DNA from: Antedon mediterranea
Lineage: Eukaryota > Echinodermata > Crinoidea > Comatulida > Antedonidae
Length of the DNA stretch: 64,000 nt
Reading direction: 5' to 3'
Assembly: GCF_964355755.1 (NCBI RefSeq)
Contig: NC_092679.1
Span: 18,466,932 to 18,530,931 of the forward strand
The notes under the pieces: model-generated
Told to the model about the DNA's origin: nothing
Database searches by the model: none
What the model saw: only the letters and a program-made list of their open reading frames with translations
Part shown: piece by piece, positions 12,201 through 18,200 of the stretch
How positions within the stretch are numbered: the stretch's first letter is position 1
How the letters are laid out: each line of letters opens with the position of its first letter
Position numbers and translations under genes: made by a program

Positions 12201-15200
12201 TGTACATGTCAATATCATAGTTCTGCCTCTTAACATAGACACTTAGCATTACATCAAATAATTAGTATATTGCGATTCTATATATTTAAATATACATAAA
12301 CATTTTTCTTTGTAATTGTACACCACCACCACTATGTATCTATGATTGAGGTAAAATATATCAAGTAATTATAAAAGTTGGCAATTGCCAATACAGTATA
12401 TAAAAATGAAAAATCCAAGGGTATATATTTATGCACAAATATATCTCTTTTAAAAAATAAGTGACAAAATAGATTAAACAAAAAAAGAATAAAAAAATGT
12501 TTTTTTACTGTATCGTGTGAATTTATACAACATTGCTTTCTTGATATTTTCTTCTAAATACATATTGTTAAATTTATTTTCTTGCTGAATGATGTAGTTA
12601 TAAATTTGATTGTAATTGGAGAGAATACACCAACCTTCTTAGTGTAAAGTGCCATTGGTGAGCAACATGCAAAATGCAGATCGGAACAGCTCTGAACAGC
12701 ATGAAGAAAAGCGCCCCCATACAACAAAAATGTAAAAGGAAAACAAACAATTGAAAAACATAACGTAGAGTATACCGTACAGTCAACTCCGACAAAACCA
12801 GATATCGAGCACATTGGAAACTTTTTACTATTGTTGCTATAAAAACAAGGTTGACATTTATCAATGTTTTTGATTAAGTCAAGATGTGAGTGAAAGGCTG
12901 AGACTTTATTTATCTTACTAAATGGTCTTTTTCATCTAAGATTTCAGTGTAAATAATCATTAAAAATAATTGATGTCTGATTTTAGGGGAGTTGACTGTA
13001 ATAAACAAAGGATAGACAAATAGATTTGAAACATTTGAAAAAAACTAAAGTAGAACCTCCATTATGGGGACAACGTCCGGGACCCAACAAAGTGGCGATT
13101 TAATAGGGGTTTCCTCTGAATAGGGGTTAGCAGCAGTTTTGAATAATATATTTGCCCTTGCTTTTTTCAATACGAAAAGTGTCCCTTTAATAGGGGTGTT
13201 CAAAAGGAGGAGTTCTACTGTATTCAAGTATACGGTGAGGGGAAAAGAGAGCTTGGATTTTATGACACAGTAAGTTACACCATGGCGAGTGCCACAACCA
13301 GTTGTTCAAATCCTCCATAGGAAGTGTTAACACAAAGGATTGTGGGAATGAGAAGAAACAGAATTTAAAAAAAAATGTCATTAACATAGCTGTAACTGGT
13401 CAATAACTAAGAATAAAAATATACATTTACATTGAAGTAAAAATGCATAAAGAAAAGAACGATGCAAAAATATATATATTAATACATATTAATGCGAGAC
13501 ATTCTAGTTTTTTTAACAGCAAACTTTGTAGTGACTAATATACAGTAGTACAGGTGCATTGTAAAAACAGAAGTCTTCAAACTTTGAATAAGGTATAGAT
13601 TTTTTTCTAATATATTGTAAGTACACATGGAGGGCGACAAACACAATATTATGCTTTTCTTTTTAGTTTGTCACAAACAATAATTAGATGAAAATTAATT
13701 CAGAATGTAATTTGTTGATGAATAAACCAATAATTAAGATAACAAAATTATTTGAGGCTATAGAGAGTGAAGTAGAAAGAGTTGTGAGTCACTAGGTCAT
13801 TTGATACTTTTTTCTGTAATATTGTTATGTATATGCTTTGAAATTAAAAAATGTAGGATTAAAAATTGAACTCTTTCGTAAAAGCTATATTATTAATGTG
13901 AACCCAATCATAGTCAATTGAATATAACCCAATAGAAATCCTTCTACCACATACAACAGAATAATGTTATATTAATAAGGGTACGTCTGCGAGCAATTAT
14001 GTTTCGCTGTTGGTACTACTCTATTAGTACTAGCTAGGCTAGATATCTCTACCGAAAACAACAGGTCTAAAAAAGGACATGCAAAAGATTGTTAGCCTGG
14101 ACTGGTGGGATGTAACGGTGTATTTCAAAAGTTAACGCAGAATCCTTTTTATCCTCTGGAGTCTCTCGGTATAATTCTCCCTACAAAATAACATGTTATT
14201 TCGGTCTGATCATCGATCGAGCAAATAAACAGCATGCTTTTTGAGTGAGTGTTGCCATACTCACAAGTTGACTAGAGGTCAAAGTGTGGTCAATAATCGC
14301 TATTTGTGTTGCAGCTAAAAACTGCTCTGCAATAATCGGTTAAAATACGCAATGGATTGAGTGTTTTTAATCGGTTATGTCATTTTGCATCGTTTCTGGT
14401 GCCCAAAAATAATCAATTAAAAAAATAATCAATTAATAACCGAATTATTCCTGCTCAGCAGAAACAGGCCCTAGACCAGGATTGAACCCTGGGCTTTGGG
14501 AATAGAAGGCAAGTATGTCAACTATCAAGGTACAAGCTCCATTAAGGTATACATTACCACAACAGGCTTTTATAGTGGGTTATAAATAAACAATACAACG
14601 AGGTCTACATGTAGATAAACTTGGGTGGTAGTATTTTAGCATGTTTTTTTTGCTTTGTTTGTGTTTTTTTTACCATATTTATATGGACACAAGATGCTCT
14701 ACAGTCTTTGGGAGTGGAGTTGTAATTTTGTCCTTAGAAAAAATCACGACATGTGATGGGAATTGAACCCAGGACCCTTGGAGTGGTAGCAAGCATCATA
14801 ACCACCAAGTAGCCACAACTCTACTCCTGTTTGATAGCAACTGTAGGCCATAGAGAGCAAACTGGCAAAAATTCTAGGATATACATCTTGTAAAAGTAGT
14901 ATACTCTCATGGAATCTCTTGACTACCTAAACTAAATCCTAGCCTATTTACATTTTCCCTTGACAGATGTGGGCAATACGTGCTAATAATACTATCATTT
15001 TAAATGCACTTGTTTGAAAAGTAAACATGCCAATTATCAGTTAGTATGTACAATCAAAATATTTACACACACACTTGACTGATAGTTAGTATAAATCTAA
15101 TTGATGAATCTACTCGCATACATTTAAAAACGACAGTGATGGTGGAAGAAGTGTAAATTTATCACTTTTTCACTCATTGTAGTATAAAGATATTAAATAC

Positions 15201-18200
15201 ATTTCACAAAAGACAGCTAGAGTAAATAGAAAAAGGATAAATTATCACTTAGTTCCTATTGTAGTTGATATTGTATAAATGTTCAATGATAGTTACTGAT
15301 AATAGGAGAAAATGATATTGTTGTTATCACTTTTATCTTTGTATCATTTTTTTTTATTGATCAATGATCTTCTGGTATGTGTGTATGATCAAATACAATT
15401 TTAAAAACTACTATGTCATAATTACAATAGATATCTTATATATATATATGCACTGATGAAGGGCTAGTGTTGCCCGAAAGCTCTGCTAACTTTTCTGGCT
15501 GTTTACTTTATCGTTTTGATTTAGCTTTTCGCTTTTTATTTTTGTATCTCCATTGAGATCCAGCCACTGATACCCACAGCATTGTCATTTTTTTCAGTAA
15601 TTTGCCTTTGGATTTATACATATATATATATATATATTATGTATTTAGAATTAATGTTCATTGCCTGATGTGTTTATATATATACATATATAAATATATA
15701 CGTTAAGTCTGGAAAAGAAGTAAAAACTACAGTTTGGTCTCTACAGGCTTGTTTCGTGAGTTGTGCAACTCACTCATCAGGAGACTATAATGAGAAGAAT
15801 CAATTACAACGCTGCTTATAAGCACATTTACTTGTAGAATTAGCATTTACAGGTGATATGTTTTGGAATGTCAGCTGTTATGTAACAATGCTTTCTTTCT
15901 GTGCCGGCAGGCGGACACAAGTTCGTTACGTTTGTTTAATGTCGATAATTCAGGGTGGCGGATGATAAATAATTTCTCTTTGAGGCAGAGATTGCATTTT
16001 TTGTTTGCGCTACTATATGCTTTAGTAGATGTCAAGATGCGCCATGAGGTTGTATAGTCTGTGTTATTGTCCTTGAGTGTCCAAATATGTTTACTGAGTT
16101 CAGTTGAGTTTCTAGAACGTGAATTACGGAATGATTAGGTGTGATTTCTGTATCGTGTTTTAAAATCATTTTCAGTTAGTCCGATATAAGTTTCCGAGTA
16201 TATTTACATATATATATATATATTATGTGTTTTAAATATGTATACCCAATTGTGAAACTATTTTTCAAAAAAATGTAAACAGTCCCTACTGTTTGTAAGT
16301 GATAATATAATAAATAACATAACCATTTGTGAAATGGTAAAAAAATATATAAAAGAGGGGTATAAAGTTGGCTTGGTTTGGATGTCCTGTTGGCACATTA
16401 TGGATTGAATTAGTACACATATAATGTAAGTGTAAACATAGCAACTAGCGTTTAAGAAATTATATAGCAAAAATGTTGCATTACAAACTTTACAAAATGC
16501 TATTAGTGTTAGCAAATAGTACAGTATCTAGGTGATGTCTGATATAGTAGCTAATTGTATCATAGAACAATGCTATGAGTGTAAACATAGAAAGTACTAT
16601 TGTGTAAAGACCCATGCACGGTAATATTTGTGACAATATCATCAACAAATTTGCACCTGTATATGTAAATATTCTAATGCCTCACCTGCTTTTGTATCTC
16701 TTCTTCATGTACCGTCATATCTGTAACAGCGTAACACTGCAAACAAGAAACAAAATGCGAGTAAATATTTAATACAAACTAAATCAACTTTGAGAAGGCG
16801 AGCGAATTAATTTATTTATGCCTATTCTTGGCAATTTTATACTGATTTTGTTGACTAACTTTAACAGTGTGTACCAGAGTCTTAAATCAGTTGCTCTGTA
16901 TGCAAATTATCCCTATATGAATGTCAATGTTTCAGAAGTGTAGTTCCCGAATAAATTATTATAATATACATCTTGCATACATTATTATCTTATCCAACAT
17001 TTATTTTCTAGATTCTGTCGGAGAGACAAACATGCCAAACTAACCTTTTTAGAAGATGACCGATTCATCCGACTAACTTTCTTAATGTCCATTTCCGTTG
17101 TGTTGACGCAGCCAGGTACAGGCCGATGAACGTCCCAAAATGCCCTCTCTTGGCTGTCCAGAACTTTTCGTTCCATTTTGTCTCTCTTCTTGTCAACCCT
17201 ATGATGGAAACAAATTCAAAAATTATTTCTCAATTATATTACTATTATTTAAACATTCTAAATTTAACCTAAATGACTGGATTAACCAAATTGTTAAATT
17301 ATAAATTGTAAATAAATGTAAAAATAAAATTTATTTATTGACATCTTTTGTGCAATGAATAAAATCATCATATAATTATCAATTATTAAGTGCTTAATGT
17401 GTTCTAAGAACTGTTAATATATTATATATAACTATTATTACTAATAATATGATAATCAATTTTCGAGTACTAGTGATGTTAAAACGAATTTCCTATTTTA
17501 GCATATGTAAACACACCACAATTGAAACGGCAGAAAGCTGCTTGTAAAAAGCGGTTCTGTTTGTACTCTCATTATGCTGCATATCCGCTTACCGGTGCCA
17601 ATAGCTTTTTAATCACAGCCTTGTATAGGAGTATGTAGACAAAGATGAACGATGTTAAATATTCAAAATAATACTTAAATCAAAAGCCAGTGTAATAATG
17701 AATGGAATTGAATGAAAAATATCCGAAAACCAAGAAAAGACAAGCTCTTTAAAGAAATGCACAGTAGTAACTAAATTGTTGATAACATTTAACTAATTTG
17801 TTGATAACATTTAACTAAATTGTTGATAACATTTAACTAAATTGTTGATAACATTTAACTAAATTGTTGATAACATTTAACTAAATTGTTGATAACAATA
17901 ACATTTAACTAAATTGTTGATACCATTTAACTAAATTGTTGGTAACATGCAACTGAATTGCTATTAACATGATTGTTGATAACATGTAACTAAATTGTTG
18001 ATAACATTAACAAATTGTTGATAACATTAACAAATTCTTGATAACATTAACAAATTGTTGATATCTTTAACAAATTGTTGATAACTTACTTTGCTTGTAC
18101 TTCAGCTTGCATGAATATAAATTCCCACTTTCTAGAAAACATTCGTTGCAATTTTGCCAAGTTTTCCTAAAAAATTTAAGGCAAATTTGAGGAATAAGGT

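Follow-up and report, generated by a model that had tools for sequence, protein, structure and literature searches.

A hammerhead ribozyme motif from a probable Penelope-like element in an RGS gene intron of Antedon mediterranea

The locus and its element family

The window, that is, the whole 64,000-nt stretch of Antedon mediterranea DNA analysed here (NC_092679.1, positions 18,466,932 to 18,530,931), contains part of a host gene, a truncated copy of a repeated element and, within this copy, a hammerhead ribozyme motif, all on the minus strand (Table 1). The host gene, which we take from its exon sequence to be RGS7 or RGS6, is represented by an RGS_DHEX coding stretch and, immediately to the left of the window, by an RGS-domain match of the same orientation (C10:18466628-18466903). 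In the sense of the gene, the ribozyme is located downstream of the RGS_DHEX stretch and before the RGS-domain exon, so the preliminary description rightly placed it in an intron and on the transcribed strand. A G-gamma domain is expected between the DHEX and RGS domains; no match to it was found there, and it may be split over exons.

Table 1. Features of the hammerhead locus in window coordinates
Feature	Position	Strand	Remark
RGS_DHEX coding stretch of host gene	17084..17203	-	domain match
Whole 5'-truncated insertion, ~500 bp	15697..16198 (left end approximate)	-	AT repeats on both sides
3' end of RT-endonuclease-like frame	15871..16198	-	ETYIGLTEN to stop at 15873-15871
3' untranslated / pseudo-LTR part	15697..15870	-	short form without 60-nt tail
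Hammerhead ribozyme motif, type I, open stem I	15737..15785	-	predicted cleavage 3' of A at 15742
Stem I, 5' strand GTCTC	15785-15781	-	partner is 15741-15737
Core CTGATGA	15780-15774	-	read directly
Stem II, 7 bp, loop GCAC	15756..15773	-	
Stem II strands and loop	GTGAGTT 15773-15767; loop GCAC 15766-15763; AACTCAC 15762-15756	-	
Core GAAA	15755-15752	-	read directly
Stem III, 3 bp (A-U, C-G, A-U), loop AGCC	15743..15752	-	
Stem III letters	CA 15751-15750; loop AGCC 15749-15746; TG 15745-15744; T 15743	-	
A17	15742	-	predicted cut after 15742
Stem I, 3' strand GAGAC	15741-15737	-	read directly

The insertion belongs to a repeat family that we call PLE1. A search of the 354-Mb assembly (18 contigs) gave 143 candidate copies, 40 of which were scored, and the stretch 16200-15720 has at least 42 scored genome matches at 91–100%, the window's own included. 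The remnant said to adjoin the ribozyme is thus real, matching genome copies at 91–99% from 16198 to about 15697. Among ten loci compared (numbered with the prefix L), L010 is the closest, with 4 differences in 502. The reading frame in the window carries one premature TAA at 16137-16135, and the ribozyme lies 85 nt past the stop codon of the remnant; its hammerhead fold is intact, in line with the earlier claim that the ribozyme outlived a dead coding part. A structure prediction for the window remnant was unusable (pLDDT 46.7). Beside the insertion, window positions 15645-15668 contain a fragment of a different repeat (AGAATTAATGTTC..TTGCCTG). The same fragment is also found next to other PLE1 copies, among them L003 and L002 (the latter being the same copy as L010), and PLE1 seems to enter TA stretches of this repeat.

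The coding capacity of the family is seen in L003, where an open frame of 596 aa ends 85 nt before the ribozyme. Three copies (L011, L080 and L083) reach an ATG and share a common 5' end. The protein contains the motifs FDIVEFYPSIS, GLYRDDG, CxC..CPL..C and V[IV]YQATV..TY[IV]GLT, which we take to denote a reverse transcriptase (RT) and a GIY-YIG-like endonuclease. Searches of Pfam, NCBIfam, PDB sequences and PHROGs gave no firm match for this protein, and the GIY/YIG alignment obtained was in register and weak (E 0.017, probability 2.7%). The proposed Penelope-like GIY-YIG endonuclease is plausible from its motifs, although no search confirmed it. Named from motifs and anatomy, PLE1 is plausibly a Penelope-like element. 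An optional 3' tail, AT-rich targets, 5' truncation and head-to-head inverted copies are all found in PLE1, and these features have been described for Penelope in the available text of PMC3846280 and PMC11167929.

The 3' boundary of PLE1 takes two discrete forms, ending at reference position 515 or 575; the two differ by a 60-nt tail that appears hairpin-like by eye. Of the 59 rows spanning the motif, one of them the window's, 25 stop at reference 514-519 and 30 at 573-575, while four end elsewhere, the longer end being approximate since the reference stopped at 575; most of these rows continue into TA repeats. A tail similar to that of PLE1 follows the pseudo-LTR of a second, related family in L019. 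Head-to-head inverted partial PLE1 copies are present in L009, L041, L060 and L148, with some junctions close to the ribozyme, and L012 carries two ribozyme motifs on one strand. A third related family occupies L020:2393-4675 (a 760-aa frame in L020) and L022:1391-3187; a hammerhead scan behind its frame in these two loci found none.

The hammerhead motif, its fold and its conservation

The invariant core of the hammerhead consists of CUGANGA, GAAA, U16.1 and H17. This core is complete in the window motif: direct reading of the minus strand from 15785 to 15737 bears out every core base reported by the preliminary description, as well as its coordinates, the predicted cut after 15742, the five-pair stem I and the short stem III. 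In the energy model, three stems of 5, 7 and 3 bp surround the core. The eight pairs previously counted in stem II have to be reduced to seven, because the eighth would enclose a 2-nt loop, which the model forbids. Owing to an A at 15762, the window copy has a U-A pair in stem II where most family copies pair U-G. The folding energy of the motif is unremarkable (z -1.2 and -0.8); within 125 nt of context, the best fold (-21.8 kcal/mol) is more favourable than the hammerhead (-16.7) by 5.1 kcal/mol. As a motif, it is confirmed as a real, well-formed hammerhead, which by its sequence should be able in principle to cut itself.

Conservation was assessed on 59 pseudo-LTR matches extracted from the fetched loci. 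In 48 of these PLE1 copies the core is complete and each of the 15 pairs is kept; eight carry a defect and three, with length changes near the motif, were unscored, one of which (L062) is intact by eye and had been shifted by the extraction. When the 17 rows chosen by core pattern are left out, 42 rows remain, from loci reached through DNA similarity; in these, the fold is kept in 35, lost in five and unscored in two. The figure of 48/59 overstates the constraint, since the copies are young and the loci were partly chosen by an intact core.

The second family offers a more distant comparison. Its protein is about 57% identical to that of PLE1, its ribozyme differs in sequence, and its hammerhead lies 84 nt behind the stop as against 85 nt in PLE1. 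The hammerhead is the best fold of this ribozyme both alone (-21.1 kcal/mol) and with 20-nt flanks (-26.4 kcal/mol), in which case stem I continues past an internal loop. The catalytic core (CTGANGA, GAAA, TA) is kept in both families, while the stem sequence varies and pairing is mostly kept. In an alignment of eight sequences (four PLE1, three second-family and L034), 93.3% of the cells pair, compared with 19–47% in slid controls. Cells changed on both sides number 12, against 5.5 in shuffled alignments (0 of 500 as high), and paired cells, cells changed on both sides and the covariation score each exceed all 500 shuffles; these eight rows represent two or three families, hence few independent events, and the alignment of L034 is poor in stem II. 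Both-side changes occur somewhere in the alignment at five of the 15 pairs, a number reached by 61 of 500 shuffles and not exceptional; the same holds for the pair types (193 of 500). Between the families, the both-side changes fall in stems I and II, and stem III is invariant.

These comparisons bear on what the motif is. It is very probably the type I hammerhead of the Penelope-like family PLE1, situated in the pseudo-LTR behind an RT-endonuclease-like frame, presumably catalytic and presumably serving the element, the frame being named from its motifs. Alternatively, the motif could mainly be a hairpin with a structural or protein-binding function in the pseudo-LTR, recognized by the RT, with the hammerhead core kept by accident. 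This would accord with the available text of PMC11167929, in which cleavage of the RNA of a lizard Penelope element requires the element protein, and in vitro insertion still takes place with RNA that cannot be cleaved. However, the core is kept in both families while the stem sequences change, and a mere hairpin needs no such core, which makes this alternative improbable.

Chance expectation was estimated with a strict descriptor (exact core, stem I of at least 5, stem II of at least 8 with the eighth pair counted, and stem III of at least 3). It found one site in the window and one in 1292 Mb of first-order Markov sequence generated from the window, both strands included; with looser stems (4, 4 and 2), one match in the window compares with 73 in the same amount of simulated sequence. 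A looser core pattern matched 120 places in the genome as against 4 for the reversed pattern; these 120 matches, the first 100 of which were listed, take in other repeats without stem I. In many genome repeats, a hammerhead-like core and hairpin (CTGATGATGGGCTATGCCCGAAACATGTC and a longer relative) occur with an extra T before stem II and with stem I absent, for example at L023:865, L024:888, L028:926, and L031:752 and 5117.

The curated covariance models did not detect the motif. Rfam release 15 gave no match in the whole window at gathering scores and no hammerhead in 15000-17000 up to E 10; for the 73 bases around the motif, only the type III model responded, in the wrong register and with 13.5 bits against a gathering score of 48.5. 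The type I model RF00163 had no match in the whole genome, and this silence is uninformative because the control genomes likewise gave none. At E up to 1, Rfam also missed the second-family ribozyme in L019, L020 and L034; since that ribozyme folds in textbook manner, the Rfam test was judged uninformative. We count the miss as a limit of the models, as published Penelope hammerheads are described as atypical, and a score above a curated covariance model is not in itself a defining feature of a hammerhead ribozyme. In contrast, a model built from the second family alone (seven variants, hammerhead structure supplied by hand, short calibration, filters off) returned the window motif as its top match in the window, with 33.3 bits and E 1.9e-6, the next-best match reaching 13.9 bits. 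The covariance scan proposed earlier, in which a score below threshold was to count against the motif, thus falls below threshold with the Rfam hammerhead families and passes with the home-made model. The PLE1 copies in L009, L010 and L016 score 32.4–32.5 bits with this model; the stem-I-less repeats score 13.5–16.2 bits in L023, L024, L031 and L033 and have no match at E up to 1 in L028, L030 and L032. A chance or vestigial likeness, in which hammerhead letters have no catalytic role in the element, would agree with the silence of Rfam and with the stem-I-less repeats, which show that cores can persist without the full fold, but it is very unlikely in view of the chance rate of 1 in 1292 Mb, the pairing across two families and the match to the second-family model.

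Insertion junctions at the predicted cleavage site

In active elements, the ribozyme most likely cuts element RNA, possibly in tandem arrangement, after the UA at 15743-15742, and such a cut would separate units or set RNA ends. Copies that begin at the predicted 5' product end were sought with a 41-nt pattern downstream of the cut, which gave 73 matches, with 0 for the reversed control, and which would mostly miss starts beyond reference position 470. Among 19 further places read, L129 and L134 start exactly at this end. In L129, genomic DNA is joined directly to GAGACC, and in L134 (read further in L148) an internal stretch of the element's own ORF is joined to it, both without microhomology. 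L133 is compatible with a cleavage-site junction and ambiguous by TA. The fetched loci contain ten separate breakpoints at reference 431-470, counting L140-L142 (same flank) once and L134 and L148 as one place, with palindromic junctions included; two of the ten are exact at the cut, or three with L133. The binomial chance of at least two breakpoints at one site is 0.025, and of at least three 0.0016, both calculated post hoc, and reference position 459 also has two breakpoints. A TATA-context survey reaching 25 nt further gave three matches, namely L129, the ambiguous L133 and one elsewhere.

The corresponding second-family survey gave 48 rows, which by visual grouping represent C4:23326930 and about 12 other places; the latter, judged from the printed letters, showed no junction at the site. 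C4:23326930 itself had the appearance of a cleavage-exact second-family junction, but on reading it turned out to be a copy of the ribozyme that carries a point mutation (L149). The 5' junctions that cluster at reference 420-422 in L043, L131, L143, L041, L070, L054, L039 and L144 were likewise rejected as a boundary set by the ribozyme; because they coincide with the element's TATA beside AT-repeat targets, microhomology is the simpler reading.

The exact junctions in L129 and L134 are a weak hint only. That the ribozyme cuts in vivo and that the cut RNA becomes a template for reverse transcription, leaving PLE1 breakpoints exactly on the cleavage site, is a tentative and rather doubtful proposal. 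If it were true, the RT would run off a 5' end made by the ribozyme and then join or switch template. The genome combines two diverged families, dozens of young near-identical copies, a stem III and base-level junctions; with these copies and mappable junctions, the use of cut RNA in insertion becomes testable.

Relation to known hammerheads and to the host gene

Ribozymes of this kind are already known in Penelope-like elements, and the window find, real but ordinary, matches the published ones. Minimal type I hammerheads occur in the pseudo-LTRs of Penelope-like elements and Terminons (PMC6155905, PMC7229834, PMC7761336), and those of Penelope are presented in the available text as minimal, of unknown role and perhaps active as dimers (PMC7761336, PMC6155905). 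PLE1 shares with them the type I form, the probable location in the pseudo-LTR region of an element with a putative RT and endonuclease, the many dispersed copies and the lack of an evident loop-loop contact. A difference lies in stem III, which the published ones are said mostly to be without and which has 3 bp and a 4-nt loop in both families here; in the predicted fold of the second family, stem I is also longer and has an internal loop. The Poseidon element PAc of Anolis carolinensis, as portrayed in the accessible portion of PMC11167929, has AT-rich targets, a pseudo-LTR hammerhead and a 3' tail explained by an internal RT start, all of which recall PLE1. In PAc, however, the ORF starts at stem II of the hammerhead, whereas the PLE1 ORF stops 85 nt ahead of the motif; the three copies with an ORF start have another common 5' end. 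Animal non-LTR retrozymes also carry a type I hammerhead; they are characterized in the parts available of PMC7229834 as non-autonomous repeats of about 170–400 nt, while the motif here is part of a coding element.

The window copy appears to have arrived recently, as a 5'-truncated insertion into AT-rich DNA of the intron; its coding part is dead, and the ribozyme was carried along. The preliminary description had proposed that it could still cleave the host pre-mRNA. A stronger form of this idea, in which the copy cuts the RGS pre-mRNA in the intron and alters splicing or expression, a role put forward for the conserved hammerheads in amniote introns, draws on its sense orientation and intronic position and on the retention of all core bases and pairs, including the Watson–Crick pair formed by A at 15762. 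Against it stand the single motif with its unfavourable fold in context and the youth of the insertion, which, with 4 differences in 502 from another copy, gives no sign of long retention; we regard it as highly improbable. Cleavage of the host pre-mRNA by the window copy is putative and looks inefficient: a solitary intronic copy is likely weak, given its one strict motif, the other folds favoured and the published suggestions that Penelope hammerheads perhaps work through dimers or, in one case, only with the element protein. The host gene is probably affected little or not at all, and its regulation by the ribozyme is possible but unsupported. Most likely, the window copy is an ordinary intronic passenger. 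In the available text of PMC6155905, the hammerheads of amniotes in RECK, CTCL and DTNB are similarly intronic and thought to be derived from retroelements; they are conserved, whereas the window copy is a young, dispersed one that gives no sign of conservation.
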